Shown here: positions 37,498-59,272 of the stretch, one piece after another
Layout: every line of letters begins with the position of its first letter
Numbering within the stretch: the first letter of the stretch is position 1
Source: Nocardia fluminea
Lineage (GTDB): Bacteria; Actinomycetota; Actinomycetes; Mycobacteriales; Mycobacteriaceae
Length of the DNA stretch: 64,000 nucleotides
Direction of reading: 5' to 3'
Assembly (NCBI RefSeq): GCF_002846365.1
Contig: NZ_PJMW01000002.1
Span: 5,084,001-5,148,000, forward strand
Made by a program: the position numbers and the translations under genes
Notes under the pieces: model-generated
What the model was told of the DNA's origin: nothing
The model's input: the letters and a program-made list of their open reading frames with translations, nothing else
Databases searched by the model: none

Positions 37498-37614
37498 ACC
37501 GTCGCAGGCCCGGTGGCGCCGCGGAGCCCGTGGTTCCCGGTGGCCGGGAGATCGCCGTGCACTGTCCGCTGACCGGGAAGACCAGGGCGGACGCGGGGAC
37601 GGCGACCCTACCGT
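37498..37614. promoter_or_regulatory. Divergent kshB / SDR promoter pair with shared steroid operators
   Basis: Operator 1, TCCCG-GTGGC-CGGGA (37535-37549), is perfect. Thirty nt to its left on the minus strand is CGACGGT (37504-37498), a candidate kshB -10. Operator 2, GTCCG-CTGAC-CGGGA (37564-37578), has a degenerate left arm; 29 nt to its right is CTACCGT (37608-37614) for the SDR pair. Operator centres are 29 bp apart. The same spacing occurs at 46.1, 53.6 and 59.2 kb. Confidence 0.65.
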
Positions 37615-37650
37615 CGGGCTCGTGGACACCAGATTCTCCGGGGGCACCCG

Positions 37651-38448
37651 ATGAACCGCATGCAGCACACCGTCGCGCTGGTGACCGGCGCGGCAGGGGG
37701 AATGGGCCGCGCCCATTGCCGTCGGCTGGCCGAGGAAGGCGCCGACATCATCGCGCTCGACATCGAGGCCGCCGCGGCCGAATTGGCCGAGACGGCACGA
37801 GAAGTCGAGTCACTGGGGCGCCAGTGCGTCACCGGTATCGCCGACGTGCGCGATCAGGCATCCCTGGACGTGGCTGTCGCCGACGGCGTCGCCGCGCTGG
37901 GCCGCCTCGACGTGATCGTGGCCAACGCCGGCATCTACACCGACCTCGGCCTGTCCTGGGAACTGTCGGACCAGGCCTGGCAGCGCACCATCGACATCAA
38001 TCTCACCGGCATGTGGCACACCGTGCGCGCCGCCGTGCCCGCCCTGTCCGACGGCGGCTCGGTGGTGATCGTGAGCTCCACCAACGGCATCGTCGGCGCG
38101 GCCGCGGCCGCGCACTACTCGGCGAGCAAGCACGCCGTGGTGGGGCTGGCACGCACCCTGGCCAACGAGCTCGGGCCGCGCGGGATCCGGGTGAACACGG
38201 TGCATCCCGGCTCGGTCGCCACGCCGATGATCCTCAACGACACGGTGTACGCCAAACTGCGCCCCGACCTGCCGAATCCGACACAGCAAGACGCCGCGGA
38301 GGCGCTGGCCCTGCGCACGATCCTGCCCGTCGCGTGGGTGGATCCGGTCGACATCAGCAATGCCGTGCTCTTTCTCGCATCCGACGAGTCCCGTTACGTG
38401 ACGGGAATTCAGCTCGTGGTGGATGCCGGACTTACTCAGAAGGTGTGA
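37651..38448 (+). CDS. Mycofactocin-type SDR oxidoreductase (candidate hydroxysteroid dehydrogenase) 1
   Basis: A 265-residue SDR with T-G-A-A-G-G-M-G-R at residues 12-20, N-A-G-I, catalytic Tyr/Lys in Y-S-A-S-K, and the C-terminal W-V-D-P-V-D-I-S-N-A-V-L-F-L-A-S-D-E-S-R-Y typical of mycofactocin-coupled SDRs. These hold NAD tightly and hand electrons to mycofactocin. Its location between ksh and kstD operons points to a hydroxysteroid or steroid alcohol substrate. It is followed 1 bp later by a paralogue. Confidence 0.83.
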   Translation: MNRMQHTVALVTGAAGGMGRAHCRRLAEEGADIIALDIEAAAAELAETAREVESLGRQCVTGIADVRDQASLDVAVADGVAALGRLDVIVANAGIYTDLGLSWELSDQAWQRTIDINLTGMWHTVRAAVPALSDGGSVVIVSSTNGIVGAAAAAHYSASKHAVVGLARTLANELGPRGIRVNTVHPGSVATPMILNDTVYAKLRPDLPNPTQQDAAEALALRTILPVAWVDPVDISNAVLFLASDESRYVTGIQLVVDAGLTQKV

Positions 38449-38449
38449 C

Positions 38450-39277
38450 ATGGGACGGGTTTCGGGCAAGATCGCGCTGATCACCGGCGCCGCGCGCGGT
38501 ATCGGCCGCGCACAGGCGATCCGGCTGGCCGAGGAAGGCGCCGACATCGTCGCCGTCGACATCTGCGGCCCGGTCGAGACCGTGGTGTCGCCGGGAGCGA
38601 CCCACGACGACCTCGCCGAGACCGTGCGCGCGGTCGAGGCGACCGGCGCGCGGATCGTCGCCGCGACCGTCGACGTCCGCGACGGCGCGGCGCTGCGGGC
38701 CGCGGTCGACGCCGCGGCCGAGCAGCTGGGCGGTCTCGACATCGTCTGCGCCACCGCCGGAATCAGTTCCAGCGGTGGCGCACTGGAACTGACCGAACAG
38801 CAGTGGCAGACGATGATCGATGTCAACCTGACCGGTGTGTGGCAGACGTGCAAAGCCGCCACCCCGCACCTCATCGCGCGCGGCGGCGGCGCGATGATCC
38901 TGACCAGCTCGATCGCCGGACTACGCGGCCTGGTCGGCGTCGCGCACTACACCGCCGCCAAACACGGAGTGGTGGGGCTGATGCGATCACTGGCGAAAGA
39001 GCTTGCCCCGCACCATGTCCGGGTCAACTCGGTGCATCCGACCAATGTCGACACCCCGATGATCCAGAACGACATGGTGCGCAAGGTGTTCCGGCCCGAC
39101 CGGGAGAACCCTACCCGCGAGGAGTTCGCGGAGGCGGCGGTGACGATGAACATGCTGCCCATCCCGTGGGTCGACCCGATCGACATCGCCAACGCCGCCC
39201 TGTTCCTCGCCTCCGACGAGGGCCGCTACATCACCGCGGTGACCTTGCCCATCGACGCGGGCAGCACCCAGCGCTAG
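38450..39277 (+). CDS. Mycofactocin-type SDR oxidoreductase 2
   Basis: A 275-residue paralogue of the preceding SDR. T-G-A-A-R-G-I-G-R at about 12-20 is followed by an insertion with V-D-I-C-G-P-V-E-T and A-T-H-D-D-L-A-E-T-V, diagnostic of the mycofactocin-associated SDR subgroup; catalytic Y-T-A-A-K follows. ATG at 38450 starts 1 bp after the first SDR stop. The pair could act on two different alcohol positions (for example C3 and C17), which is inference. Confidence 0.83.
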   Translation: MGRVSGKIALITGAARGIGRAQAIRLAEEGADIVAVDICGPVETVVSPGATHDDLAETVRAVEATGARIVAATVDVRDGAALRAAVDAAAEQLGGLDIVCATAGISSSGGALELTEQQWQTMIDVNLTGVWQTCKAATPHLIARGGGAMILTSSIAGLRGLVGVAHYTAAKHGVVGLMRSLAKELAPHHVRVNSVHPTNVDTPMIQNDMVRKVFRPDRENPTREEFAEAAVTMNMLPIPWVDPIDIANAALFLASDEGRYITAVTLPIDAGSTQR

Positions 39278-39281
39278 CGCG

Positions 39282-40316
39282 CTAGCAACGTTGGTACCGA
39301 CGCGCGAAGGGCTCCGACTCCGGTGCGACCTCACTCCCGGGTGCCGGGCAGCCGCCGACCAGGACGGCGAACCTGGGGCCCTCGCGCGTCACGATCGTGT
39401 AGTCGACCACAGCACCGGGCCGGGCCAGGTACGGAAGGTGGCGGTCGGCGAGTCGCGTCGCCTGCGCGGCGCCGAATTTCTCTCCGACGGGCGGGAATAC
39501 CATGACGCCCAAGGTGCGGCCCGCTGCGTCGGGCGGGTCGAACACCGACACCTCGGCGACGAACGGAGTGGGTTGATCGGTCAGCAACCACTCCCACACT
39601 TCGAGTTCGCCGTGGGAGGGGAAGCGGGGACGGCCGTCCACATGGGTCACACTGGGCCCCAGTCTCGAGTAGAGCTCGGACATGCTCCCCCCATGAGTGG
39701 GCGACACTGTCCAGTTGTTGGCTGCCAGTTCCGGGAACTCCTGGCTGATTCGGCGCATCGCCGCGGTGGCACGCTGGGGTTCGGCCTCGGAACCCGCTCG
39801 GACACTGATGGATCCGAGCGGTCCGTCCGCGTCTCCGTTGGCCCTGATTCCGCCGGACCAGTGAATCTCCGCACCGGTTCCGGCCGATGACACTCGGGTC
39901 CAGGCGTATGCCGCGTTCGCCTCCACGTCCACGTCCCGCCCGAACAGCCAGCTCCCGAAATAGGAGTCTGCCATCCTGCGGATTTTGACCAAGGTCTGCT
40001 CGCCTCGATAGTGCGGCGGCAGTTGCTGAGCACCCATGACACGCACGACAGACGCGGTCTCGGCCGGCGTGGCGTCGCCCTCGAGCTGCACGTCCAGTGT
40101 GGAGGTGTAGTACGAGTTGGGGCCGTACGGGTTGTACTGGAACGTATGTGACGCGTCGGCCACTCCCGGAAGGGCCTCGATGGACGCCTCGATCACCCGC
40201 GACCAGCTGTCACGCTCGTCCTGATCGGGCCCTTGCGCGAAGAGCGAACATCCAGTGAGCAGGACTGCCGCCATCATTAACCCGATGGTGGGCACCGTGA
40301 AACGCACAGCGTTCAT
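39282..40316 (-). CDS. Lipoprotein of unknown function
   Basis: A 344-residue protein with a lipoprotein signal: hydrophobic stretch T-I-G-L-M-M-A-A-V-L-L-T-G-C, lipobox Cys at about residue 25. The mature domain has no recognised family. It contains several Trp/Tyr-rich strands and a terminal pair of cysteines (V-G-G-C-P and the last residue). It lies between steroid operons, and its start region has no shared steroid operator, so a role in steroid metabolism is not implied. It converges with the SDR pair, with 4 bp between stops. Confidence 0.72.
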   Translation of the reverse strand: MNAVRFTVPTIGLMMAAVLLTGCSLFAQGPDQDERDSWSRVIEASIEALPGVADASHTFQYNPYGPNSYYTSTLDVQLEGDATPAETASVVRVMGAQQLPPHYRGEQTLVKIRRMADSYFGSWLFGRDVDVEANAAYAWTRVSSAGTGAEIHWSGGIRANGDADGPLGSISVRAGSEAEPQRATAAMRRISQEFPELAANNWTVSPTHGGSMSELYSRLGPSVTHVDGRPRFPSHGELEVWEWLLTDQPTPFVAEVSVFDPPDAAGRTLGVMVFPPVGEKFGAAQATRLADRHLPYLARPGAVVDYTIVTREGPRFAVLVGGCPAPGSEVAPESEPFARRYQRC

Positions 40317-40354
40317 CCTGCCACCGGTCGGCATAGGGACAGTCGCGGAAAATC

Positions 40355-40394
40355 GACAATGCGCGGGCTGCCCCACGGCAGCCCGCGCATTGTC
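40355..40394 (-). terminator. Strong intrinsic terminator of the kstD-hsaD operon
   Basis: A perfect 18-bp stem (40355-40372 with 40377-40394) and a 4-nt loop start 6 bp after the hsaD stop. On the minus-strand transcript it is followed by a short T-rich run (GATTTTCC). Confidence 0.8.
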
Positions 40395-40399
40395 TCGTC

Positions 40400-41269
40400 T
40401 CAGCTCGCGGTGTCCTTGCGGGTGAGGAAAGCCAGTACGGCCGACTCGAATTCGTCCTTGCGTTCGATCATCGCCCAGTGCCCACAGTTCGGGAACACGT
40501 GCAGTTCGGCACGCGGGATCGTGCGCATCGGGATCAACGCCATATCGAGGGGGCTCACCCGGTCGTCGCGGCCCCAGGTGATCAGCGTGGGCGCGGTCAC
40601 CTTGTGCAGCATCGCCCACGGCGGCGGCGCGTCGGAGGCTTCCATCGCCTTGACCATCATCGCGAACGCGGCCTTGCTGTACATCCGGCGGGCACTGTCG
40701 AGCGTCGCGGGATCGGTGGCCTGGGTCCAGCGCTCCTCGATGAGTTCCTCGGTGACCATGGCCGGGTCGTAGACCATCGAATGCAGCCACTGGACCAACC
40801 GCTCGCGGGTGGGTTCCTCGGTGAACTCCTGCAGCAGCTTGATGCCCTCACCGGGGCCCGGGCTGAACAGGTTGCGGCCGATACCACCGATCGTCACCAG
40901 CTTGCCGACCCGCTCCGGATGGGCGATGGCGTAGTTGAGCGCCACGCCGCCGCCCATCGAGTTGCCGATGATGTCGACGCTGTCCAGGCCCAGCGCGTCG
41001 ACGAAACGGACCACCGCGTCGAGCGCGGTGACCATCGGGTGCCCGCCGAAATCGTCGCTCACCCCGAAACCCGGGAATTCCAGGACCAGACAACGGAATC
41101 GCTGCGCGAACACCGCGAGATTGCCGCGGAAGTTACGCCACCCCGTGACGCCGGGACCCGATCCGTGCAGGAGCAGCAGCGGTGGTCCCTCGCCCGCCTC
41201 GTGATAGCGCAACACACCCGCGTCGGTGGTGATCTCGCGCAGCGTGCCCTCGTAGCTCAGGTCGGTCAT
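40400..41269 (-). CDS. hsaD: 4,9-DSHA hydrolase HsaD (meta-cleavage product hydrolase)
   Basis: A 289-residue alpha/beta hydrolase of the BphD/HsaD group. H-G-S-G-P-G-V-T-G-W at residues 35-44 forms the oxyanion region, nucleophile Ser104 is in G-N-S-M-G-G, acid Asp235/236 in G-R-D-D-R, and His264 in N-C-G-H-W. It hydrolyses the C-C bond of the ring-opened 4,9-DSHA made by HsaC, giving 2-hydroxyhexa-2,4-dienoate and DOHNAA. ATG overlaps the upstream SDR stop (ATGA). Last gene of the kstD operon. Confidence 0.93.
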   Translation of the reverse strand: MTDLSYEGTLREITTDAGVLRYHEAGEGPPLLLLHGSGPGVTGWRNFRGNLAVFAQRFRCLVLEFPGFGVSDDFGGHPMVTALDAVVRFVDALGLDSVDIIGNSMGGGVALNYAIAHPERVGKLVTIGGIGRNLFSPGPGEGIKLLQEFTEEPTRERLVQWLHSMVYDPAMVTEELIEERWTQATDPATLDSARRMYSKAAFAMMVKAMEASDAPPPWAMLHKVTAPTLITWGRDDRVSPLDMALIPMRTIPRAELHVFPNCGHWAMIERKDEFESAVLAFLTRKDTAS

Positions 41270-42051
41270 GCGTGGGTACCGCCGTCGATGCGGATCTCGG
41301 TGCCGGTGATGAAAGCGCCGTCCTCGGAGACGAGCATCGCGATCACGCCCGCCACCGCGGTCGGGTCACCCATGCCCGCGCCGCCGGATTCGCGGTCGGT
41401 CGGCAGTACGGGAGACAGCTTGGAGAACAGAGCCCAGTCGGAGTCGGCGGGCACGTATCCCGGAGTGGCGTCGGTGATTCCGGATTTGATGCTGCCGGGC
41501 GCGACGCAGACCGCGCGCAGACCCTTACCGCCGTATTCGAGGGCGATGGCATGGGTGAAGGACTGGATGCCGCCCTTGCTCGCCGCGTAGGCCGCCATGT
41601 ACGGATGCGCGAACGCCGCCGAGGTGGAGCTGAAATTCACCACCGTCGCACGCGAGTTGGCCAGCAGCGCCGGCAGTGCTTCGCGGACCACGAGGAACGT
41701 GCCGGTGAGGTTCACCCGGATGATGAGGTCCCACAGGTCGAGGGGGGTCTGCTCGGTGTGCGAGGCGCGCAGGATGCCCGCCGCGTTCACCACCGAATCC
41801 AGGCCGCCGAGGGTCTCGATCGACGACCGGACGCCCGCGATTACCGACTGTTCGTCACCGATGTCGAGGGTCAGGGTGGTGAGCCGGTCGGCGGTGCCGC
41901 GTTCGGTGGCCTGTGCGCAGGTCGCGGCGAGGTCCGAAACATCGGCGGCGACCACGCGGGCGCCCTCGTCGAGCAGCCGGAGCGCGGTGGCCTGGCCGAT
42001 GCCCGATGCGGCGCCGGTGACCAGCGTCCGGTGGTTGTCGAGTCTGTTCAT
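41266..42051 (-). CDS. SDR oxidoreductase, candidate hydroxysteroid dehydrogenase
   Basis: A 261-residue classical SDR: T-G-A-A-S-G-I-G at 12-19, N-A-A-G, F-S-S-T-S-A followed by Y-A-A-S-K. It is a different subgroup from the mycofactocin-type SDRs at 38 kb. Its place between kstD/ksi and hsaD makes a 3- or 17-hydroxysteroid dehydrogenase role plausible (inference). Confidence 0.83.
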   Translation of the reverse strand: MNRLDNHRTLVTGAASGIGQATALRLLDEGARVVAADVSDLAATCAQATERGTADRLTTLTLDIGDEQSVIAGVRSSIETLGGLDSVVNAAGILRASHTEQTPLDLWDLIIRVNLTGTFLVVREALPALLANSRATVVNFSSTSAAFAHPYMAAYAASKGGIQSFTHAIALEYGGKGLRAVCVAPGSIKSGITDATPGYVPADSDWALFSKLSPVLPTDRESGGAGMGDPTAVAGVIAMLVSEDGAFITGTEIRIDGGTHA

Positions 42052-42074
42052 GGGATTTCTCCTGGTCTTGGGTG

Positions 42075-44388: not shown

Positions 44389-44454
44389 CGTGTCGCTCCT
44401 GAAATATCGAAAGGGATGAGTATGTGAACCGAACCACATCCGGTGGCCCGGGTG

Positions 44455-44489
44455 CCCCGGTCTCTCCCGGCCAGCGGGAAAGACCGGGG
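44455..44489 (-). terminator. Hairpin between kstD-like and ksi genes, containing an operator-like core
   Basis: Two 15-nt arms (44455-44469, 44475-44489) pair with one G-U in the minus-strand RNA, just after the stop of the kstD-like gene. The top of the stem is a perfect TCCCG-GCCAG-CGGGA (44465-44479), the same pattern as the shared steroid operator. No CTACCGT element lies 29-30 nt away, so I favour an attenuator/terminator; it could also be an internal operator. Confidence 0.5.
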
Positions 44490-44494: not shown

Positions 44495-46030
44495 TCATTC
44501 GCCGAGGATGTGGCGGACGGCGAGATGGCTGAACAGCATGGACGCGCCGATCGGATTGCCGCCGCCGGGATAGACCTCGCCGCTCACCGCGGCCATGGTG
44601 TTGCCCGCGGCGTAGAGGCCCGGGATCGGCTCGCCGTCGCGGCCGAGTACCCGCGCCGCGCTGTCGGTGCGCAGCCCGCCCTTGGTGCCCAGATCGGAGA
44701 TGCCGAACGCCGCCGCGTGGTACGGACCCTTGTCGATGGTCACCAGCGGCGGTTCACCGTTGGAGAACGCCCGGTCGTAGGCCTCGTCGCCGCGACCGAA
44801 ATCGGGGTCGGTGCCGGTGGCGACCATCGCGTTGAACCGCTCGACGGTCGCCTCGAGGTTCGCGGCGGGCACGCCGATCTTCGCGGCCAGCTCGGCGAGG
44901 GTGTCGCCGGTGTGCCACAGACCGGCCTCGACGTACTTCTCGGTCTCGACCATGGAGACGTTGGTGGCCTTGATCGGGGGCACCTCGCCTTCCTTGTCGT
45001 CGTAGATCATCCAGAACGGCAGGGTGAGACCACGGTCGTTCATCTGGCGGATCACCTCACGCCCGAGCCGGTCGTAAGGGGCCGACTCGTTGACGAACCG
45101 CTTGCCGTCCTGATCGACGAAGATGCCGCCGGTGAACCACAGCGCGAACGCCGATCGTCCGTCGGGATGAGTCAGTCCGGGCGACCACCACGCCTGATCC
45201 ATCAGATCGGTGTCGGCGCCCGCCGCGATGCCCGCCTCGTGTGCCCAGCCCTGATTTCCCGAGGGCCCCATGGTGTCTCGCGCTTCGCCGGGTACACCGT
45301 AGTGCTTGCGCAGTTCGGCGTTCTGCTCGAAACCGCCCGCCGCGAGAATCACGCCGCGTCGTGCGCGGATCGCGACGCGGGCGCCGTCGCGTTCGACGAT
45401 CGCGCCCGTCACCACACCGTCCTCGACCACCAGTTCCACCAGGGGCGAATTCAGGTGCAACTGGGCGTGCGGGTAGCTCGAGATCGCGCGCAGCATCCGC
45501 CCGATCAGCGCCTGCCCGCCGATCAGCAGGTCCTGCGGGGGCGCACCGAGCCGGTCGGTGTCGAGCGTTCCGCGCAACGAGTCACGCAGTGGGCCCATCT
45601 CCGCGGCGGGCAGCGGGGTCGGCATGATGTGGCGCTGACCGTCGAGCCGGGCCTTGGGCGCTGTACCGAAGTAGTCCGGCCACGGCAGCACCATGAACGC
45701 GAAATGGTCGTCGGCCTCGAGGTATTCGATGAGGTCGCGGCCCCGCCGGACGTAGGTCTGCTGAAGCTCGTCGGGAGTGCGGTCACCGACCACGGCCCGG
45801 TAGTAGGTGAGCGCGTCGTCGAGGGTGTCGTCGGTGCCCGCGCGCTCGAGCACCGGGTTGCAGGGGAACCACACCCCGCCGCCGCCCGAATACGCCGTCG
45901 TGCCGCCGAACTTGTCGGTCGCCTCGACCACCGCGACGCTGAGCCCCTCGCGGGCGGCGGTGTAAGCGCCGGCCAGGCCACCACCCGACCCCGCGACCAG
46001 CACATCCACCTCGTCGTTCCAGTCCACCAC
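44495..46030 (-). CDS. KstD-family FAD-dependent steroid dehydrogenase (KstD3-like)
   Basis: A 511-residue paralogue of KstD. The FAD motif is V-A-G-S-G-G-G-L-A-G-A, then G-G-T-T-A-Y-S-G-G-G-G-V-W. W-P-D-Y-F-G-T-A-P-K-A and the C-terminal G-E-V-Y-P-G-G-G-N-P-I-G place it in the KstD/3-oxo-5alpha-steroid 4-dehydrogenase superfamily. The ring specificity (delta1 on 5alpha-steroids versus delta4) cannot be settled from sequence. AGGAGG lies 5 nt before the GTG at 46030; the next codon is also GTG. First gene of the leftward operon and served by the shared operator. Confidence 0.85.
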   Translation of the reverse strand: MVDWNDEVDVLVAGSGGGLAGAYTAAREGLSVAVVEATDKFGGTTAYSGGGGVWFPCNPVLERAGTDDTLDDALTYYRAVVGDRTPDELQQTYVRRGRDLIEYLEADDHFAFMVLPWPDYFGTAPKARLDGQRHIMPTPLPAAEMGPLRDSLRGTLDTDRLGAPPQDLLIGGQALIGRMLRAISSYPHAQLHLNSPLVELVVEDGVVTGAIVERDGARVAIRARRGVILAAGGFEQNAELRKHYGVPGEARDTMGPSGNQGWAHEAGIAAGADTDLMDQAWWSPGLTHPDGRSAFALWFTGGIFVDQDGKRFVNESAPYDRLGREVIRQMNDRGLTLPFWMIYDDKEGEVPPIKATNVSMVETEKYVEAGLWHTGDTLAELAAKIGVPAANLEATVERFNAMVATGTDPDFGRGDEAYDRAFSNGEPPLVTIDKGPYHAAAFGISDLGTKGGLRTDSAARVLGRDGEPIPGLYAAGNTMAAVSGEVYPGGGNPIGASMLFSHLAVRHILGE

Positions 46031-46064: not shown

Positions 46065-46186
46065 ACGGTAGGCCCGGCGGCGGTGGTCGTGGGGTGGTTC
46101 TCCCGATCACCGGGAGGGCATCGATGCGCGAATGTGCCGGTCAGCGGGAAGGGGACCTGCTCGAACGCGGTGCGCGTCCTTAGCGT
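46065..46186. promoter_or_regulatory. Divergent kstD-operon / steroid-BVMO promoters with two operators
   Basis: Operator 1, TCCCG-ATCAC-CGGGA (46101-46115), is perfect, extends to CTCCCG...CGGGAG, and stands exactly 29 nt from CTACCGT on the minus strand (46071-46065) for the kstD-like operon. Operator 2, TGCCG-GTCAG-CGGGA (46135-46149), stands 30 nt from TTAGCGT (46180-46186) on the plus strand for the BVMO. The mirrored arrangement supports function. Confidence 0.72.
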
Positions 46187-46226: not shown

Positions 46227-47858
46227 GTGAACCCCGAGACCCCATCGGCACCAGCGAAGGGCCCGGCCGACGTCGACGTGGTCGTCGTCGGTGCGGGCAT
46301 CGCCGGCCTCTACGCGCTGCACCGCTTCCGCGGCAGCGGTCTCACCGTGCGGGTGTTCGAAGCCGGCGACGGTGTGGGCGGCGTCTGGTACTGGAACCGC
46401 TACCCGGGCGCGCGCTGCGACGTCGAGAGCGTCGACTACTCCTACTCCTTCGACGACGCGCTGCAACAGGAATGGAACTGGAGCGAGAAGTACGCCACCC
46501 AGCCCGAGATCCTGGCCTACCTCGAGCACGTCGCCGATCGCTACGACCTGCGCCGTGACATCGAATTCGGCACGCGCGTCACCGACATCGTGCTCGACGA
46601 GCAGACCCTGCGCTGGCAGGTCGACACCGACACCGGCCGCGCGGTCTCGGCCCGGTTCGTCGTGCTGGCCACCGGTCCGCTGTCCAACGCCAACATCCCG
46701 GCCATCGACGGACTCGACACCTTCGCCGGGCAGATCCTGCGCACTTCGCACTGGCCGCACGAGGGGGTAGATCTCACCGGCCGCCGGGTCGGGGTGATCG
46801 GCACCGGTTCCTCCGGCATCCAGACGATCCCGTGCGTGGCCGAGCAGGCCGAGCGGCTGCACGTGTTCCAGCGCACCGCCAATTACAGTGTACCTGCGGG
46901 TAATACGCCGCTGACGGATCAGGACCGGGCCGCGCACAAGGCGAACTACCCCGAGCGCACACGGCTGTCGATGGCCAGCGGCGGCGGTTCACCGCACCAG
47001 GCGCACCCGCAATCCGCGATCGCGGTGAGCGAGCGGGAACGGCGCGAGGCCTACGAGAAGCGCTGGGCGCTGGGCGGTGTGCTGTTCAGCAAGACCTTCC
47101 CCGACCAGCTGACCTCCCTCGCCGCCAACGACACCGCCCGCGAATTCTGGGAGCAGAAGGTACGCGCCGTGATCGAGGACCCGGCGGTCGCCGATCTGCT
47201 CGTCCCGCGCGACCACCCCATCGGCACCAAACGGATCTGCACCGACACGAACTACTACCAGACCTTCAACCGCGACAATGTCGAGCTGGTCGATCTCAAA
47301 GCCACCCCGATCACCAGGATCGACGCCGCGGGCGTGCACACCACCGACGCCCACTACCCGCTCGACACCCTCGTGCTCGCCACCGGCTTCGACGCGATGA
47401 CCGGCTCGGTGTCGCGGATGAACATCGTCGGCCGGGGCGGGGAAACGCTCAACCACGCCTGGCACGAGGGCCCGAAAACCTATCTCGGACTGGGCATGTC
47501 AGGGTTTCCGAACCTGTTCAACCTGACCGGTCCTGGCAGCCCGTCGGTGCTGGCCAACATGGTGCTGCACTCGGAACTGCACGTCGACTGGGTGGCCGCG
47601 GCGATCGGCTTCCTCGACGCCAGGGGAGCGGTGGCGCTGGAGGCACGCCAGGAAGCGGTGTCGGCGTGGGTGCTCGAATGCGTCAACCGGGCGGCGGGAA
47701 CGCTGATGATGCAGGCGAATTCGTGGTATCTGGGCGCCAACATCGAGGGCAGGCCGCGGGTGTTCATGCCCTTCGTCGGCGGCTTCGGCGTCTACGGCGA
47801 GATCATCGCCGAGGTCGCGGCCGCCGGGTACAAGGGCTTCGACATCATCGAGGCGTGA
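46227..47858 (+). CDS. Steroid (progesterone)-type Baeyer-Villiger monooxygenase
   Basis: A 543-residue type I BVMO. The FAD motif is V-G-A-G-I-A-G-L-Y at 21-29, then W-N-R-Y-P-G-A-R-C-D, and the NADPH motif G-T-G-S-S-G near 200. From memory, long stretches follow R. rhodochrous steroid monooxygenase (progesterone to testosterone acetate), including Y-S-Y-S-F, E-W-N-W-S-E-K-Y-A-T-Q-P-E-I and V-L-F-S-K. The BVMO fingerprint F-x-G-x3-H-x3-W-P is altered: F-A-G-Q-I-L-R-T-S-H-W-P has Arg172 where His is standard. GTG start behind GAAAGGTAGG, under the shared steroid promoter. Role inferred: oxygen insertion at C20 or C17. Confidence 0.87.
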   Translation: MNPETPSAPAKGPADVDVVVVGAGIAGLYALHRFRGSGLTVRVFEAGDGVGGVWYWNRYPGARCDVESVDYSYSFDDALQQEWNWSEKYATQPEILAYLEHVADRYDLRRDIEFGTRVTDIVLDEQTLRWQVDTDTGRAVSARFVVLATGPLSNANIPAIDGLDTFAGQILRTSHWPHEGVDLTGRRVGVIGTGSSGIQTIPCVAEQAERLHVFQRTANYSVPAGNTPLTDQDRAAHKANYPERTRLSMASGGGSPHQAHPQSAIAVSERERREAYEKRWALGGVLFSKTFPDQLTSLAANDTAREFWEQKVRAVIEDPAVADLLVPRDHPIGTKRICTDTNYYQTFNRDNVELVDLKATPITRIDAAGVHTTDAHYPLDTLVLATGFDAMTGSVSRMNIVGRGGETLNHAWHEGPKTYLGLGMSGFPNLFNLTGPGSPSVLANMVLHSELHVDWVAAAIGFLDARGAVALEARQEAVSAWVLECVNRAAGTLMMQANSWYLGANIEGRPRVFMPFVGGFGVYGEIIAEVAAAGYKGFDIIEA

Positions 47859-48480: not shown

Positions 48481-48533
48481 TCCCGGTCAGTGGTTGTCGA
48501 GGGGTGAATTCCGGCAATGCCGGTTGCTAGCAT
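48481..48533 (+). promoter_or_regulatory. padR promoter region
   Basis: A half-operator TCCCG-GTCAG-TGGTT (48481-48495) lies 31 nt before CTAGCAT (48527-48533), which would place the transcript start at about 48540, the padR ATG. The padR mRNA may therefore be leaderless. Between them is an inverted repeat CCGGC-AAT-GCCGG (48511-48523), a candidate site for PadR itself. Confidence 0.45.
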
Positions 48534-48539: not shown

Positions 48540-49235
48540 ATGGCTACCCCCGACCCCGACTCCGGCGTGCCCAACCTGCCGCCGACCAGCTGGGCGGTGC
48601 TCGCCATGCTCTCGTACGAGGAGGAGATCTCCGGCTACGACCTGAAGAAATGGGCCGACTGGAGTCTGCGCTACGTCTACTGGACCCCGTCCTACAGCCA
48701 GATCTACGCCGAGCTGAAAAAACTCGAGCAGCACGGCTTCGCGAGTTCGCGGCTCGACCCCGACAACACCATGCGCGCCAGGCGGCTGTACCAGATCACC
48801 CCGGCGGGCCGCGCCGCGGTGACCACGTGGTGGAACAAGGCGCCGGTCGATCCGTCGGTGCTCAAGCACCACGTACTGCTGCGCGTGATGTTCGGCCATC
48901 TCGGGTCACCGGATCGGCTCAAGCAGATCCTGCACGATCACATCGCCGACGTCGACAAACTCGCGCAGCGCGCCGCGATCGATGCCGAGGCCGCGAAGTC
49001 CGAACCGGGCTGGGCCTATTCGCAGCTCGTGCTGCAATGGGCGCAGCGCCATTACGCCACCGAACGCGACCTCGCGCAGCAGTTGATCGACGACATCGAC
49101 AACGCGGCCACCGTGCTGGCCGGCGCCGAACACGACGAACGCGCCGACTATCCCCACCCGACGCCCGGTCGCTGGCGCGAGATCGAGCAGCGGGTCCGCG
49201 AGGAAGAGCTCGAGCAGCACGACCCGGCGGACTAG
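48540..49235 (+). CDS. PadR-family transcriptional regulator
   Basis: A 231-residue regulator. The N-terminal winged helix has A-M-L-S-Y-E-E-E-I-S-G-Y-D-L-K-K-W and S-Q-I-Y-A-E-L-K-K-L-E-Q-H-G, then L-Y-Q-I-T-P-A-G. The C-terminal helical region (PadR_C/Vir-like) mediates dimerisation. It is divergent from hsaB, so hsaB and perhaps other steroid genes are likely targets. Confidence 0.9.
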   Translation: MATPDPDSGVPNLPPTSWAVLAMLSYEEEISGYDLKKWADWSLRYVYWTPSYSQIYAELKKLEQHGFASSRLDPDNTMRARRLYQITPAGRAAVTTWWNKAPVDPSVLKHHVLLRVMFGHLGSPDRLKQILHDHIADVDKLAQRAAIDAEAAKSEPGWAYSQLVLQWAQRHYATERDLAQQLIDDIDNAATVLAGAEHDERADYPHPTPGRWREIEQRVREEELEQHDPAD

Positions 49236-52554: not shown

Positions 52555-53526
52555 TCACCGGTCCCGAGGCAGCTCGAGCAGCTCGCGCGCCATCGTCCAG
52601 ATCTGGGCGCGCGCGGCCACGGTGGCGGCTAGGGACGGGATGCTGAGGAAGCCGTGGAACAGCCCGTTGTAGCGGCGATGCCGGACCGCGACGCCGTCGG
52701 CCGCCAGCTGCTGGGCGTAGGCGTCCCCGGCCGAACACGGCGGGTCCAGTTCGGCGGTGATCACCACCGCGGGCGGGAGACCGGCCAGCGAGGCCGCCCT
52801 GGTCGGCACGAGACGCGCGTCGTCGGTGCCGTGCGGTGCGTAGTTCGCCCAGTACCACCGCATGGCACTGGTCGTGTTGTAGTGGCCGGTGCCGAATCGC
52901 CGGTAGGACTCGGTCTCGAAGTCGTCGTCGATCACCGGATAGATCAGGATCTGGGCCGCGATCGGCGGCCCGCCGGCATCTCTGGCCGCGATGGCCACGG
53001 TGGCGGCGAGATTGCCGCCCGCGCTGTCACCGGCCACCGCGATTCTCGCCGGGTCGCCGCCGTAGGCGCCGGCATTGCCGGCGGCCCACCGCAGCGCCGC
53101 CAACATGTCGTCATGGGCCGCGGGGCCCGCGTGCTCGGGCGCGAGCCGATAGTCGACCGAGACCACCACGGCACCGACCCCCGCCGCCATCGACCGGCAG
53201 AACTCGTCGTGACTGTCGAGGTCGCAGAACACGAAGCCGCCGCCGTGCGCGAACACGATCACCGGCAGTGTCTCATCGTCGTGATGCGGCCGGAACACGC
53301 GCAGCGGTAGCGGGCCGCCGGGCCCGTCGATGGTGAGGTCACGCGCCGTGCGCATGTCGGGAAGCCGTTGCAGCGGAGCGCGTCTGGCCCGGATCGCCGC
53401 ACGCGCCTCGGTCGCGGTCATCGTGGCCACCTCGGGGAATCCGGCGTCGAGCGTGGCGAGCATCGCCGCGACCTCCGGATCGGGAACCGCACCCGGCCCG
53501 GTGGTCGGAAAAGTTCGCACAGTCAC
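52555..53526 (-). CDS. Hormone-sensitive-lipase family alpha/beta hydrolase (esterase)
   Basis: A 323-residue HSL-family esterase. Oxyanion motif is H-G-G-G-F at about 94-98, nucleophile Ser in G-D-S-A-G-G, acid in E-L-D-P and His in G-L-F-H-G-F. It hydrolyses short acyl esters. Next to a progesterone-type BVMO it is a natural candidate for cleaving the acetate ester of the BVMO product (testosterone acetate), as known for the R. rhodochrous and Cylindrocarpon pathways. It has a promoter with the shared steroid operator geometry. Confidence 0.87.
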   Translation of the reverse strand: MTVRTFPTTGPGAVPDPEVAAMLATLDAGFPEVATMTATEARAAIRARRAPLQRLPDMRTARDLTIDGPGGPLPLRVFRPHHDDETLPVIVFAHGGGFVFCDLDSHDEFCRSMAAGVGAVVVSVDYRLAPEHAGPAAHDDMLAALRWAAGNAGAYGGDPARIAVAGDSAGGNLAATVAIAARDAGGPPIAAQILIYPVIDDDFETESYRRFGTGHYNTTSAMRWYWANYAPHGTDDARLVPTRAASLAGLPPAVVITAELDPPCSAGDAYAQQLAADGVAVRHRRYNGLFHGFLSIPSLAATVAARAQIWTMARELLELPRDR

Positions 53527-53571: not shown

Positions 53572-53659
53572 ACCGTAGAACCGGTGTCCCGCGATCCGAA
53601 CCGCGTTCTCCCACTGGGCGGAAACACCAGGTCGACGGCCGTCGGAGGCTGCCTACGGT
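53572..53659. promoter_or_regulatory. Symmetric divergent promoter of esterase / barrel-protein operon
   Basis: One operator, TCCCA-CTGGG-CGGAA (53609-53623, 8 of 10 arm bases matching), sits between two CTACGGT -10 elements. The plus-strand one is at 53653-53659 (29 nt away), the minus-strand one at 53578-53572 (30 nt away). A single site in the middle of mirrored promoters fits one regulator controlling both genes. Confidence 0.68.
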
Positions 53660-53665
53660 CGGTGG

Positions 53666-54013
53666 ATGGAAGCCACGAAGGTCTACGTGATCGACACCGT
53701 AGTGACCGAGCCGGGGCGGGCACGGGAATTCGTCGACGCCTATCTGCGCGACTACGCCCCGGGTGCGCGCGAACGCGGCATGACCCTGGAACGGATCGTG
53801 GTGAGTCCGCCCGTGTGGTTACCGGACGAGTCGAACACGATCATCGCGAGCTGGGTGCTCGACGGCGCGCAGGGCTGGTGGGCGATGACATGGCAGGGAC
53901 GTTCGGACGAGTCGGTACGCCGGTGGTGGGACCGGGCGCAGGAACTGATCGTCGAACGGACCCGCTCGACCGGGGCGCTCGCCACCGACATCGAGGAGCT
54001 CGGCAATGTTTGA
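53666..54013 (+). CDS. Small dimeric alpha/beta-barrel-like protein
   Basis: A 115-residue protein: V-Y-V-I-D-T-V-V-T-E-P-G-R-A-R-E-F-V-D-A-Y opens a ferredoxin-like fold, with I-I-A-S-W-V-L and a Trp-rich helix W-W-A-M-T-W-Q. It looks like a distant NIPSNAP/Dabb-type barrel but I cannot name the family. It overlaps the next gene by 8 bp and is driven by the shared steroid promoter type. Confidence 0.75.
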   Translation: MEATKVYVIDTVVTEPGRAREFVDAYLRDYAPGARERGMTLERIVVSPPVWLPDESNTIIASWVLDGAQGWWAMTWQGRSDESVRRWWDRAQELIVERTRSTGALATDIEELGNV

Positions 54014-54742: not shown

Positions 54743-54750
54743 ACGCGGGA

Positions 54751-55599
54751 TCACGCCGTCCGAGGTCCGCGGCGGTCGGCGTAGGACCGGCCCACACCCA
54801 GCGGGCGAGGATGCTGCTGCAACGTCGGGTGGACCCGCACCCGGCCGTCGTCGACGTGGCGCCAGATGTTGAGCGCGGTCGTGCGCACCGGCGCGCTGAG
54901 ACGGTGATCGAACAGCATCCGGTCCACCGGTCCGCACACCGACACCGCCGCCACGGCCGCCTCGCCGAGATCGCCGATGGGCGCCGCGATACAGCCGAAG
55001 CCGGGCAGTGATTCCTCGCGCTCGACGGCGATCCCGTGCGCGCGCACCTTGTCCAGTTCGGTGTCGAGCTGGGCCTTGGTGGTGATCGAGTAGCGGGTGC
55101 GCGCGCCTGCCTGGCCCGCGAGAGCGTCGGCGATGCGGCGCTCGTCGGAGTAGGCCAGGATCGCCTTGCCGACCGCGGTGCAGGCAGCGGGGCGCCTGCC
55201 GCCCACGCGGGTGGGCACGACCGCCGACAGCTCACCGCCGACCTTGTCGAGGTACACGACGTCAGGGCCGTCCAGCACGGCCAGATGCACGACGAACCCG
55301 GTGACCCGGTGCAGCTCGTGCAGGAACGGCATCGCCGCCCGGTGCAGCCGGTCCTGGTGCACCGCGAGCGAGCCGAGCTCCATCAGCCGGATGCCGAGCT
55401 CGTAGTCGCGCCCTTCGCGACGTAGCCAGCGCAACTGCACCAGCCGATCGAGCATGCGATGCGCCGAGGACCGGGGTAGACCGGTGCGCCGGACGATCTG
55501 GGCGAGCGTGAGCCTGCCCGGCCCGTCGAAGGCGTCGAGCAGCAGGGACGCGCGATCGAGGATCGCGCTCGGGGTGGTGGCCTCGGCCTGGATGACCAT
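54751..55599 (-). CDS. IclR-family transcriptional regulator
   Basis: A 282-residue regulator. The N-terminal winged helix has L-T-L-A-Q-I-V-R-R-T-G-L-P-R-S-S-A-H-R-M-L-D-R-L. The C-terminal effector domain has Y-E-L-G-I-R-L-M-E-L-G, T-A-V-G-K-A-I-L-A-Y and P-G-F-G-C-I-A-A-P-I. It lies next to hsaC and is a leading candidate for the protein that recognises TCCCG-N5-CGGGA, because IclR proteins bind short GC-type palindromes and often activate from upstream positions (inference). Its own upstream region is AT-rich. Confidence 0.88.
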   Translation of the reverse strand: MVIQAEATTPSAILDRASLLLDAFDGPGRLTLAQIVRRTGLPRSSAHRMLDRLVQLRWLRREGRDYELGIRLMELGSLAVHQDRLHRAAMPFLHELHRVTGFVVHLAVLDGPDVVYLDKVGGELSAVVPTRVGGRRPAACTAVGKAILAYSDERRIADALAGQAGARTRYSITTKAQLDTELDKVRAHGIAVEREESLPGFGCIAAPIGDLGEAAVAAVSVCGPVDRMLFDHRLSAPVRTTALNIWRHVDDGRVRVHPTLQQHPRPLGVGRSYADRRGPRTA

Positions 55600-55713
55600 G
55601 AGCTCTCCATTCGGATCTACGAGCTGATGCCCAGTCGCATATTTCGATTAGGCATATACCTATTCATACCATCCGTTGTGGTCGTTGTCACATGAATCGG
55701 CAGGTGAATATCA

Positions 55714-55764
55714 CGACGAAGGCCCCTGTCCCGAGCGAGCTGCTCGGGACAGGGGCCTTCGTCG
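55714..55764 (-). terminator. 23-bp perfect-stem terminator of kshA-hsaA-hsaC
   Basis: An uninterrupted 23-bp stem (55714-55736 with 55742-55764) and a GAGCT loop begins 14 bp after the hsaC stop. It is the longest perfect inverted repeat I saw in the window. No T-run follows on either strand; in actinobacteria this is acceptable for a terminator, and it also protects the 3' end. Confidence 0.75.
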
Positions 55765-55778
55765 GGCTACCCGCGGAT

Positions 55779-56684
55779 CTACATCGCCGCGAGCGGCTCG
55801 CTACCGGACCAGTCGTGGCCCCAGTAGCTGTCCGCGGTGATCTCCTCCGCGCTGTAGTACGTCTCGTCGACCCGCATGCCTTCGGTGCCGAACTCGATGT
55901 CCCAGCCGCCGGGCGCGCGGACATAGAACGACACCATCTTGTCGTTGGTGTGCCTGCCCAGCGTCGAGGACACCGAGAAGCCGTCCTTGGTCACCCGATC
56001 GAGGGCCTGCCCGACCGCGTCGAGGGTGTCGACCTCGACCATGATGTGCACCAGGCCGGGCGCGCCACCGTGCGGGGCCGGGCACAGCGCCAGGCTGTGA
56101 TGGCGTTCGTTGACACCGAGGAACCGCACCCGCATCGGGCCGTACTCCGGCGGGGCCGGGATCCGGAACGCCCCGCGCGGCAGGAATCCGAGCACGTCGG
56201 TGTAGAAGCCGAACGCGCCGTTGGGGTCCATGGTCGGCAGCACGACATGGCCCAGACCCTGTGCGCCGGTGACGAACCGGGCGCCGAACGGGGTGATCAC
56301 CGGGCTGTGATCGAGCACCGCGCCGTGGAACACCTCGAGAGTGGCCCCGGTCGGGTCCTGGAAGGTGATGACCTCCTCGACCCGGCGCGCGTCGGCCTCC
56401 TCCACCGAGAGCGGTTTCACCGCGATCCCCGCCGCCGTCACGGCCTCCTGGACGCGGACCAGCGCGGCGTGGTCACGCACTTCCCAGCCGATCGTCACGA
56501 TGGCGTCGCTGTCGCCGGGCACGATGGTGATCCGCGCCGCGCGCTCGTCCATCCGCAGGTACAGGGCGTTCTCATCGGGTCCGCTGCCCTCGGCGAAGCC
56601 GAGCACCTCGAACGCGAACTTGCGCCACCGGTCCATGTCGGCGGTCTGGATCTTGACGTAGCCGAGGCCTTTGATGTCTGTCAT
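55779..56684 (-). CDS. hsaC: 3,4-DHSA iron-dependent extradiol dioxygenase HsaC
   Basis: A 301-residue two-domain vicinal-oxygen-chelate dioxygenase. Iron ligands are His146 (Q-G-L-G-H-V-V), His213 (L-V-H-I-M) and Glu264 (W-D-I-E-F-G). It performs meta-cleavage of the catechol 3,4-DHSA to 4,9-DSHA, the HsaD substrate. I start at the second ATG (M-T-D-I-K-G) because GAAGGA is 8 nt before it; the ATG at 56690 is too close to that site. Last gene of the kshA operon. Confidence 0.94.
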   Translation of the reverse strand: MTDIKGLGYVKIQTADMDRWRKFAFEVLGFAEGSGPDENALYLRMDERAARITIVPGDSDAIVTIGWEVRDHAALVRVQEAVTAAGIAVKPLSVEEADARRVEEVITFQDPTGATLEVFHGAVLDHSPVITPFGARFVTGAQGLGHVVLPTMDPNGAFGFYTDVLGFLPRGAFRIPAPPEYGPMRVRFLGVNERHHSLALCPAPHGGAPGLVHIMVEVDTLDAVGQALDRVTKDGFSVSSTLGRHTNDKMVSFYVRAPGGWDIEFGTEGMRVDETYYSAEEITADSYWGHDWSGSEPLAAM

Positions 56685-56710
56685 TTCCATTGTCCTTCGT
56701 GGTGTCCGGG

Positions 56711-57889
56711 TCAGATCATGGAGCGCAGGTTGTCCGCGGGCTCGAGACCGAGGGAGCTGACGGCCGAGGCGTGATACACCGTGCTCGGCACGTGGATGGC
56801 GTGGGCGAGGCCCACGTGGGCGTCGCGCCAGTAGCGTTGCAGCGGCTTGTCGAGCCGCATGGCGTTGCCGCCGGAGCGGGCGAAGATCTGGTCCACCGCG
56901 GAGACCGCGCGCCAGGCCGCGCGGACCTGGGTGCGCCGGACCGCGGCCCGGTCGGCGAAGCTGATCTCCTTGCCCGCGTCGACGGCGTCGAAGATCTTGT
57001 CGGCGTTGGCGAGCAGTTCCTGGCGCGCGGCGTTGATGTCGGCGGCGGCCTCGCCGATGGCGAACAGCACGTACGGGTCGTCCTTGACCGCGGTGCCCTG
57101 TGCGCCCACCCGGTCACGCTGGTAGTCCAGGTGCGCGGCCAGCGCGCCCTCGGCGATGCCGACCACCGCGGAGCTGATGCCCAGCGGGAACATCGTCGAC
57201 CACGGCATCTTGTACAGCGTCTCGGTGACCCCGTACTCCTTCTGCGCGGTGCCGTCGATGACGTGGTCGCCGTTCATCACCCGGTAGTCGGGCACGAACG
57301 CGTCCTTGACGATGATGTCCTTGGACCCGGTGCCCTTGAGCCCCACCACATTCCAGGAATCCTCGACGATGGTGTAGTCCTGGCGCGGCAGGATCATGTG
57401 CAGCATCGTCGGCGGCAGCGCCATCTTGCCCTCGGCGTCACCGAGCATGGCGCCCAGGAAGATCCAGTCACAGTGATCGGTGCCGGAACTGAACTGCCAG
57501 CGGCCGTTGAAGATGTAGCCGCCGTCGACCGGACGGGCGATACCGGTCGGGGCGTAGGGCGAGGCCATCCAGGTGTCGTGGTCGTCGGACCACACCTCGT
57601 CCTGCACCTTCGGGTCGGCGAAGGCCAGCTGCCACGGATGCACGCCGACGATGCCGGCGATCCAGCCGCTGGCCGGGTCGAGCGCGGCGGTGGCCATCAC
57701 CGTCTCGGCGAACTCGCGCGGGTGCGCCTCGTAGCCGCTGTACTTCTTCGGCTGCAGCAGGCGGATCGGGCCCGCTGTCTTCAGCAGCTGGGCCGTGGCG
57801 TCGGGCAGCTGCCCGAGCCGCTCGGCTTCGGGTGCCTGCTCGCGCAGCTGATCCGCGATCGCGGCGATATTGTCGAGAACTCTGGTCAT
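56711..57889 (-). CDS. hsaA: 3-HSA hydroxylase oxygenase component HsaA
   Basis: A 392-residue flavin-dependent monooxygenase of the acyl-CoA dehydrogenase fold. Markers are W-I-A-G-I-V-G-V-H-P, G-R-W-Q-F-S-S-G-T-D-H-C-D-W and L-K-G-T-G-S-K-D-I. With FMNH2/FADH2 from HsaB it hydroxylates 3-HSA to the catechol 3,4-DHSA. Between kshA and hsaC in one operon (37 and 26 bp gaps). Confidence 0.94.
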   Translation of the reverse strand: MTRVLDNIAAIADQLREQAPEAERLGQLPDATAQLLKTAGPIRLLQPKKYSGYEAHPREFAETVMATAALDPASGWIAGIVGVHPWQLAFADPKVQDEVWSDDHDTWMASPYAPTGIARPVDGGYIFNGRWQFSSGTDHCDWIFLGAMLGDAEGKMALPPTMLHMILPRQDYTIVEDSWNVVGLKGTGSKDIIVKDAFVPDYRVMNGDHVIDGTAQKEYGVTETLYKMPWSTMFPLGISSAVVGIAEGALAAHLDYQRDRVGAQGTAVKDDPYVLFAIGEAAADINAARQELLANADKIFDAVDAGKEISFADRAAVRRTQVRAAWRAVSAVDQIFARSGGNAMRLDKPLQRYWRDAHVGLAHAIHVPSTVYHASAVSSLGLEPADNLRSMI

Positions 57890-57926
57890 CTCCGATGATG
57901 CTTTCTGTTCGTGGTGGGGTGAGGGA

Positions 57927-59102
57927 TCAGGACATGGTGTCGATGACGGCGCCGCGGGCGATGTTGTCGGCCACCTCGGCCTCCCAGCTCGTCACCGCGC
58001 GATCGGTATCGATCTCGAACTCGAAGCGTTTGGTCATGTCCTCGGTGACGTCGTCGACGTCGACGTAGAACTGCTTGTACCAGCGGCGCAGCTGATACAC
58101 CGGACCGTCCTCCTCCGACAGCAGCGGATTGTCGATGGGCGCCTTGTTCTTCCAGATCTCGACGTCCTGCTCGAATCCGTACTCGACGCCCTGCGCGAAC
58201 TGCGCCGCCATCGCGTTGGCGTCCTCGTCGGACATGCCTTCCGGCTTCTTGACCATCGCGCCGTACTGCAGCACGAACGAGTTCTCGTCGACCGGGTAGT
58301 GGCAGTTGACGAGCACCGTCTCGATTGTCATCCCGTTCGATTCGCTCCACAGCCAATCGAGCATGTACGACGGACCGAAATACGAGGCGTCCGAACGCAA
58401 TGCGGAATCCGGGTCGTCGTAACTGGTGCCGACGGTGACGTCGTGGCGCGGCGTCGAACGCATGTACTGGGTGGCGACGTGGCCCTCGAAGACGTTCTTG
58501 AAGTAGCGCGGGAACGAGTAGTGCACGTAGAAGAAGTGCGCCATGTCGACGACGTTGTCGACGATCTCGCGACAGTGCGAGCCCTCGATCAGAATCGAAT
58601 TCCAGGTCAGGTCGGTCCATTCCGGTGTGCCGTAACCCTCGATCTCGGGGATGGTCACGTCGTCGGTGGGCTTGCTGCCCTGCGGGTCGTGCCAGACGTA
58701 GAGCTGGCCGTTGCGCTCGAGCGTCGGCCAGGTGCGGGTCTTCGCCAGCGGCGGCACCCGGCGCGCGTACGGAATGGCCGTGCACTTGCCGTTGCCGCCC
58801 CAGCGCCAGTCGTGGAACGGGCAGGCGATCGAGTCGCCCTTGATGGTGCCGCGGGCGAGGTTGCCGCCCATGTGGCGGCAGTATCCGTCGAGCACGTGCA
58901 ACGCGCCGTCGGATTCGGACTGGAACACCACGAGCATGGTGCCGAAGGCCTTCACCTCGTGCGGTTTGCCGTCGCGGAACGACGAGAGCAGGCCGAGGCA
59001 GTGCCAGCCGCGAGCGAACCGAGTCGGCGCCGCGGCGGCCTCGATCTGCCGGTAGTCGGCGGTGGTGTGCTGCGATCGGCCGTTCGGCGAGTTCTCCGGC
59101 AT
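57927..59102 (-). CDS. kshA: 3-ketosteroid 9alpha-hydroxylase oxygenase KshA
   Basis: A 391-residue Rieske oxygenase. The [2Fe-2S] ligands are Cys75-x-His77 and Cys94-x2-His97; the mononuclear iron site is in N-V-V-D-M-A-H-F-F-Y-V-H. F-A-R-G-W-H-C-L-G-L and F-H-D-W-R-W-G-G-N-G-K-C are canonical KshA. With KshB it 9alpha-hydroxylates androstenedione/androstadienedione, which opens ring B when combined with KstD. ATG at 59102 behind GGAGG; upstream in-frame ATGs lie in the promoter region. Confidence 0.95.
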   Translation of the reverse strand: MPENSPNGRSQHTTADYRQIEAAAAPTRFARGWHCLGLLSSFRDGKPHEVKAFGTMLVVFQSESDGALHVLDGYCRHMGGNLARGTIKGDSIACPFHDWRWGGNGKCTAIPYARRVPPLAKTRTWPTLERNGQLYVWHDPQGSKPTDDVTIPEIEGYGTPEWTDLTWNSILIEGSHCREIVDNVVDMAHFFYVHYSFPRYFKNVFEGHVATQYMRSTPRHDVTVGTSYDDPDSALRSDASYFGPSYMLDWLWSESNGMTIETVLVNCHYPVDENSFVLQYGAMVKKPEGMSDEDANAMAAQFAQGVEYGFEQDVEIWKNKAPIDNPLLSEEDGPVYQLRRWYKQFYVDVDDVTEDMTKRFEFEIDTDRAVTSWEAEVADNIARGAVIDTMS

Positions 59103-59144
59103 CGAAACCTCCATGTTCGGACGGAGTGGGGATGAGCTGCGCCG

Positions 59145-59272
59145 ATGGTCGCGCCGAGCGAGGGCTTGCGGGTCCGGGTGTTCCCGGTCAGCGGACATGT
59201 TTTCGTCCCGGTCGGCCGGTATCCCGATGACCGGGAGAGGAACCGATCACAGCCGTCCGCCCGCCCTACCGT
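59145..59272. promoter_or_regulatory. Divergent kshA / maoC promoters with steroid operators
   Basis: Operator B, TCCCG-ATGAC-CGGGA (59222-59236), is perfect and exactly 29 nt from CTACCGT (59266-59272) on the plus strand for the MaoC-like gene. Operator A, TCCCG-GTCAG-CGGAC (59182-59196), has one clean arm and is 30 nt from CGACCAT (59151-59145) on the minus strand for kshA. A further half-site (TCCCG at 59206) lies between them. Confidence 0.68.

Follow-up and report, generated by a model that had tools for sequence, protein, structure and literature searches.

The stretch of DNA analysed here (the window) comprises 64,000 nucleotides of Nocardia fluminea (RefSeq assembly GCF_002846365.1, contig NZ_PJMW01000002.1, positions 5,084,001 to 5,148,000), and contains a steroid island between about 32 and 60 kb that carries genes for the complete steroid-ring route. 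Its proteins include an HpaH/HsaE-like hydratase, HsaF/HsaG-like enzymes, a KshB-like reductase, HsaD, two KstD-like proteins, short-chain dehydrogenases/reductases (SDRs), an HsaB-type flavin reductase, HsaA, HsaC, a hormone-sensitive-lipase-type esterase and KshA. For a Baeyer-Villiger enzyme of the island, the solved structure of a Rhodococcus steroid monooxygenase (4aos) gave a match of 909 bits; judging from the established biochemistry of that enzyme, the monooxygenase and the esterase would strip a C21 side chain. Among the regulatory genes of the island are an iclR and a padR gene, and its promoters share a palindrome, TCCCG-N5-CGGGA, which is the subject of this report.

An operator with fixed promoter geometry

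The palindrome lies 29–31 nt 5′ of TA(C/G)(C/G)GT −10 elements, with five operators serving six promoters of the island (Table 1). Palindromes were scored by the number of arm bases, out of ten, that match TCCCG-N5-CGGGA, and the gap was taken as the distance between the end of the palindrome and the T of the TAnnnT −10 hexamer. The operator is found at the promoters of the steroid monooxygenase, the KstD-like gene, the esterase, the SDR gene and gene 59306, and at kshA with a non-canonical −10. All palindrome copies and −10 elements reported in a preliminary description of this DNA were recovered at their positions, the copies at 37535, 46101 and 59222 being perfect, that at 46135 matching nine of ten arm bases, and those at 53609, 37564, 59182 and 61503 matching eight. 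The description had also proposed a fixed gap of 29–30 nt. This applies, as 29–31 nt, to five operators and fails for 37535 (gap 59), where the right −10 had been paired with the wrong copy; its true partner is the weaker 37564, 29 bp away in a tandem pair. The single operator at 53609, flanked by two mirrored −10 elements, stands as described. Two copies had been overlooked, the fourth perfect palindrome of the window at 44465 and an operator-like box at 48481, 5′ of padR. If transcription starts 6–7 nt after the −10, the operator centre lies near −50, the activator-like position suggested earlier, and the ATG of gene 53666–54013 falls at the expected start point, so that its transcript is possibly leaderless.

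Counting palindromes alone gave no signal, with 88 copies (up to two mismatches) in the window versus 98 expected from shuffles. By contrast, the window contains 4 of the 21 perfect palindromes of the source genome (8,057,701 bases, 4 contigs), where ~0.17 would be expected by length. The palindrome (up to two mismatches) combined with TA(C/G)(C/G/T)(A/G)T at a gap of 29–31 occurred at 5 of 56 sites in 36–63.9 kb, at 0 of 32 in 1–36 kb, and at 3 of 281 in 214 kb of other source-genome stretches. The combination is therefore enriched in the island, as the regulon first proposed would have it (Fisher p = 0.004, against comparison stretches that are non-random, many having been chosen for holding a palindrome or a −10 match). 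Other source-genome palindromes (14 in loci L001–L014, and those of L117 and L118) were rejected as members, none having a −10 at 29–31. At a further locus (L120), a perfect palindrome at 4138 lies 95 nt 5′ of a KstD-related FAD-binding gene (4247–5728), without the −10 geometry. Genome-wide palindrome counting was discarded as evidence, as abundance alone is not tied to the island, and the weak correlation between IclR homologue number and palindrome count across 148 genomes (Spearman 0.33) was given no weight.

Two promoter profiles were then compared with the source genome. Model R2, built from 16 Mycobacterium and Rhodococcus promoters only, gave 12 matches at E ≤ 1 in the 8.06-Mb Nocardia genome, 7 of them in the island. 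Its top three were 46101, 37564 and 59222 (E 1.6e-5, 2.1e-4 and 2.7e-4), three of the island operators described above. Model R1, built from 37 promoters of which four came from the window, gave 51 matches at E ≤ 10, and the best eight all lay in the island. R1 had 17 matches in the window; the weaker copy at 61503 was absent from these and was dropped as a regulon member, and the box at 48481 is likewise not reported by R1. The ninth R1 match (16.6 bits, E 0.11) lies in a distant locus (L116, G000:C2:5821000-5830000) encoding CasI (steroid-22-oyl-CoA synthetase, 1058 bits, cut-off 900), a SnoaL_4 protein and two SDRs, where further R1 scores reach 15.2 and 14.0 bits and R2 has no match at E ≤ 1. 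Operator copies at 3066 and 4570 of this locus stand 31 nt from TAGCTT and TAGGCT, which fit a relaxed −10 pattern only. These two weaker sites make the bile-acid (casI) locus a candidate member of the regulon.

Conservation across genera

The IclR protein, used as a query, retrieved 79 loci (18 Nocardia, 1 Skermania, 44 Mycobacterium/Mycolicibacterium, 11 Rhodococcus/Prescottella, 3 Kutzneria and 2 others), of which 55 entered the palindrome comparison; near-duplicates were excluded by hand, and five loci from other genera were omitted. When coding DNA was included, conserved coding repeats dominated the palindrome scan; the scan used here was confined to non-coding DNA and tested 13,312 gapped palindromes. 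In all, 203 occurred in each of the three groups (Nocardia, Mycobacterium and Rhodococcus), and among these TCCCG-N5-CGGGA had the top combined score by a wide margin, with 21 observed versus 0.35 expected in 16 Nocardia-group loci, 12 versus 0.48 in 32 Mycobacterium loci, and 3 versus 0.22 in 7 Rhodococcus loci. The spacing recurred together with the palindrome. Across non-coding sites, the distance to TA(C/G)(C/G/T)(A/G)T was 29–31 nt in 41 cases and took any other value in 24 (9 of these at 59–61). Sites masked as coding by a rough gene finder had the same peak (24 at 29–31), probably because gene starts had been called too early. Tandem layouts like that of 37535 and 37564, with boxes about 29–30 bp apart, were seen at 20 mycobacterial promoters, and a tandem pair lay 5′ of a monooxygenase homologue in all ten mycobacterial promoters whose neighbours were listed. 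In the −10 profile, for which sites were selected to match the −10 pattern, the promoter-proximal arm was better conserved than the outer distal bases. Motif and spacing recur in Nocardia, Mycobacterium/Mycolicibacterium and Rhodococcus, whereas the Kutzneria loci were rejected as members. One steroid cluster, from Mycolicibacterium sp. lyk4-40-TYG-92 (L093), contains two IclR copies (61% and 68%), at 3341–4105 and 10001–10750.

The published KstR and KstR2 motifs had been said not to match these promoters, and no exact match to either consensus was present in the window. For KstR (TnnAACnnGTTnnA), 10 sites with one mismatch were found versus 4.0 expected from shuffles, and for KstR2 (AnCAAGnnCTTGnT) 18 with up to two mismatches versus 7.3, so that near-matches to both are commoner than in shuffles. 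With no exact consensus in the window, the island promoters were not assigned to either regulon. KstR and KstR2, TetR repressors of cholesterol catabolism, resemble the regulator sought here in that their targets are sterol-ring degradation genes belonging to the same enzyme families. They differ in their operators and in being repressors, whereas the island geometry suits an activator.

Candidate regulators

The preliminary description had named IclR, PadR and TetR proteins as possible binders. The IclR-family protein passes the Pfam thresholds for HTH_IclR (51.6 bits, cut-off 22) and IclR_C (120 bits, cut-off 24). Its best NCBIfam match is the model of the PcaR/PcaU/PobR regulators, TIGR02431, and at 131 bits it falls below the curated cut-off of 284.75, so that it was not placed in that subfamily; it also differs from those regulators in lying in a steroid island instead of serving aromatic acids. 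Co-occurrence was assessed in 148 same-genus genomes, with an iclR orthologue defined by at least 400 bits and a strong R1 match by E ≤ 1e-4. Strong matches were present in 33 of 37 genomes with an orthologue versus 10 of 111 without, and the four orthologue genomes below threshold had best R1 E values of 1.4e-4 to 3.2e-4. Among the matches listed, 115 of 150 had a listed IclR homologue no more than 30 kb away (~2.0 expected); in genomes without a close orthologue, 21 of the 41 listed lay within 30 kb of another listed IclR homologue (~0.4 expected). In one genome without a full-length close orthologue (G071), a steroid cluster with KshA, KshB, HsaA–D, KstD, IclR (46%) and PadR (57%) carries the operator.

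The operator therefore co-occurs with IclR in a way that does not by itself decide against PadR: padR and iclR travel together, so that the co-occurrence supports both as candidate binders. Among the 33 loci listed from Nocardia, Mycobacterium and Rhodococcus, most have an operator-like box 5′ of padR. At the protein level, residues 31–70 are the best conserved part of IclR (0.88 versus 0.52–0.78 elsewhere), whereas the DNA-binding region of PadR scores 0.69. The TetR candidate (51521) is disfavoured, having a match (E ≤ 1e-40) in 17 of the 37 orthologue genomes and lying inside the island in 3 (the source genome G000, G046 and G128).

The promoter of iclR carries elements of its own. Its palindrome differs from the TCCCG box in being AT-rich, and an exact TTCCTA-N-TAGGAA is present in 29 of 44 mycobacterial loci (e.g. 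near 9916 in L054). In the G071 cluster, related AT-rich elements are situated next to hsaB and next to a promoter containing a TCCCG box. This AT-rich palindrome may be a PadR site, the interpretation we prefer, or it may be an autoregulatory site of IclR. A CRP-like TGTGA-N6-CCACA 5′ of iclR occurs in most of the listed Nocardia and Mycobacterium loci; within the window alone, CRP-like matches are near chance frequency. A hairpin-like inverted repeat at ~55720–55760, between hsaC and iclR, recurs in several Nocardia loci with varying letters and is possibly a terminator.

The perfect palindrome at 44465 forms the core of a 35-nt sequence with a strong predicted RNA hairpin (z −5.3), and whether it acts as an operator is uncertain. 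The hairpin flanks covary in several Nocardia loci, and in three loci (L043, L046 and L107) a near-palindrome is retained without them. TTCGGT was considered as a −10 for 44465, but the CRP-like GTGGTTCGGTTCAC overlaps it; a second exact CRP-like match, TGTGAACCGAACCACA, lies at 44423–44438 in the SnoaL promoter region. At the edge of the island, 60055–60912 encodes a DNA/RNA non-specific endonuclease.

Table 1 Operators, promoter elements and genes of the steroid island (window positions).
Feature	Position	Strand	Remarks
Distal operator of tandem pair, 5′ of SDR gene 37651	37535..37549	+	Perfect palindrome; gap 59 to −10
Proximal operator of SDR gene, GTCCGCTGACCGGGA	37564..37578	+	Gap 30 to TACCGT
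−10 element TACCGT, SDR gene	37609..37614	+	
Hairpin, core the perfect palindrome 44465–44479	44455..44489	-	Between KstD-like 44495 and SnoaL 44017; no canonical −10
KstD-like FAD protein	44495..46027	-	
−10 element TACCGT, KstD-like gene	46065..46070	-	
Operator, KstD-like gene (44495–46027)	46101..46115	-	Gap 30 to TACCGT
Operator, steroid monooxygenase gene	46135..46149	+	9/10 arm bases; gap 31
−10 element TAGCGT, steroid monooxygenase gene	46181..46186	+	
Baeyer-Villiger steroid monooxygenase	46227..47858	+	909 bits to 4aos; GTG start 46227 probable
Operator-like box 5′ of padR, TCCCGGTCAGTGGTT	48481..48495	+	TAGCAT at 48528–48533; not found by R1
PadR-family regulator	48540..49235	+	Rival binder or repressor
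Hormone-sensitive-lipase-type esterase	52555..53526	-	
Operator between mirrored promoters	53609..53623	.	TACGGT 53654–53659 (+), gap 30; TACGGT 53572–53577 (−), gap 31
Small conserved protein	53666..54013	+	
IclR-family regulator	54751..55599	-	Favoured binder
AT-rich conserved element, iclR promoter	55637..55661	-	
CRP-like site 5′ of iclR, TGTGACAACGACCACA	55677..55692	-	
HsaC-like (55779–56690) and HsaA-like (56711–57889)	55779..57889	-	
KshA, 3-ketosteroid 9alpha-hydroxylase oxygenase	57927..59198	-	True start probably within ORF
Operator facing kshA, GTCCGCTGACCGGGA	59182..59196	-	Same letters as 37564; −10 non-canonical, GACCAT 59145–59150
Operator, gene 59306	59222..59236	+	Gap 30 to TACCGT 59267–59272

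Discussion

Taken together, these comparisons make it very likely that a conserved operator with fixed promoter geometry controls the steroid island. The decisive evidence is the conservation across genera, the fixed spacing and the R2 test; the palindrome count alone proves nothing. The regulator of the TCCCG boxes is likely an activator, because the distance to the −10 is fixed, as at activated promoters without a −35, and because the promoter-proximal arm is the better conserved. Several IclR proteins are activators, and the sites of E. coli IclR follow a 5-N5-5 layout. The fixed spacing, the conserved proximal arm, the conserved DNA-binding region and this layout lead us to favour IclR 54751–55599, which we consider the probable activator. 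At promoters lacking a good −35, a dimer would bind near −50 and contact RNA polymerase, and tandem boxes 29 bp apart would add a second dimer. The ligand sensed by IclR would be a 3-ketosteroid or an intermediate of ring degradation. PadR, with an operator-like box at its own promoter, would most likely be a repressor, perhaps of iclR at the AT-rich 55637–55661. On balance, the sequence comparisons argue that TCCCG-N5-CGGGA is the activator operator of a second steroid (C19/C21) island outside the known KstR/KstR2 operators, with IclR as its likeliest binder. More tentatively, one may picture a two-regulator circuit outside KstR/KstR2 across mycolic-acid actinobacteria, in which IclR would activate the island, the casI locus and padR via −50 boxes, PadR would repress iclR at the AT-rich palindrome, and the CRP-like site would couple iclR to carbon status.

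Several observations weigh against an IclR-bound activator operator. Ranked within single genera, the palindrome is 2nd in Nocardia, 7th in Mycobacterium and 42nd in Rhodococcus, where the top-ranked CTCCC-N7-GGGAG can be read as the same arms with the inner bases relaxed. The three Kutzneria loci (IclR 43–44% identity) have no site with the operator/−10 geometry. R1 was trained partly on island promoters, and its best eight matches include four training rows and the opposite strand of one. In 146 of 148 same-genus genomes, copies of the palindrome by itself outnumber those of its reversed control (median 28 versus 10), whether the island is present or absent. PadR is present in 37 of 37 iclR-orthologue genomes, in 20 of 20 Mycobacterium/Rhodococcus genomes checked, and beside IclR in G071. 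The different palindrome at the iclR promoter would be consistent with IclR regulating its own gene through that site and a different protein occupying the TCCCG boxes. Finally, R. ruber kstD2, which may or may not carry the operator, is not induced by androstenedione (AD; 0.7-fold; PMC5348764).

PadR might itself bind the TCCCG boxes and repress both the island and its own gene until released by steroids, with IclR acting only at its own AT-rich site. The box 5′ of padR in three genera and a linkage of PadR to the islands as tight as that of IclR are consistent with this arrangement. Moreover, the C-19+ steroid cluster of M. smegmatis (see below) is said to have a PadR-like regulator, and mutants in that gene reportedly express the cluster constitutively; these mutants would be equally explained by PadR repressing iclR. 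A repressor could act without a constant spacing to the −10, and the box is positioned 5′ of the core promoter. PadR sites are AT-rich with a wider arm spacing, and the DNA-binding region of PadR is the less conserved of the two. We therefore regard PadR as an unlikely binder of the TCCCG boxes. It is less probable still, and in our view improbable, that the two proteins share the operator, or that a third factor from another locus occupies it, the island regulators then not being its main binders. The over-representation of the palindrome in nearly all same-genus genomes and the strong R1 matches in ten genomes without an iclR orthologue would suit such a factor, but about half of the listed matches in genomes without a close orthologue lie near another IclR homologue, and the 14 other source-genome palindromes have no −10 at 29–31. 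A GC-rich palindrome could also recur by chance in a GC-rich genome without serving regulation. This reading agrees with the two-mismatch count at shuffled expectation and is very improbable given the cross-genus recurrence, the fixed spacing and the independent R2 test, whose result contradicts it.

The preference for IclR as activator can be set beside published systems, which were compared by description. A literature search of open-licence papers found no published description of a TCCCG-N5-CGGGA operator, so that the claim of an undescribed regulon holds for the operator within that literature, while related steroid clusters and regulators are partly known (PMC7062782, PMC5962712). In M. 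smegmatis, the C-19+ cluster serves C-19 steroids and is separate from the kstR regulon (PMC5962712); like the island, it is a second steroid cluster outside that regulon, and it differs in that the operator, the IclR role and the promoter geometry are described for the island only, as far as the available text of that article goes. In Pimelobacter simplex, the steroid-induced gene for the IclR-family SRTF2 lies beside a ketosteroid dehydrogenase gene, an arrangement resembling the island, with an SRTF1 site upstream; SRTF1 differs in being a TetR protein with a 22-bp palindrome (PMC7062782). The R. ruber steroid cluster contains iclR and padR (PMC6498646), and for N. simplex further motifs have been predicted and a PadR gene named (PMC7807495). 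R. ruber kshA1 and kshA2 are AD-induced without a KstR motif; the authors of that work argue that other regulators are needed, point out a palindrome close by and, in contrast to the activator favoured here, suppose a repressor (PMC8228715).

In our classification the island is a catabolic regulon whose operator serves an activator; we do not see a new mechanism in it. In the parts of the literature available to us, KstR and KstR2 are the only well-established regulators of actinobacterial steroid catabolism, and AD-induced genes without KstR sites must, according to the authors who described them, have other regulators (PMC8228715). A defined operator, a fixed geometry and two named candidate proteins make this question of the missing regulator directly testable. 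Steroid biotechnology gains from it an inducible promoter type and possibly a steroid sensor.

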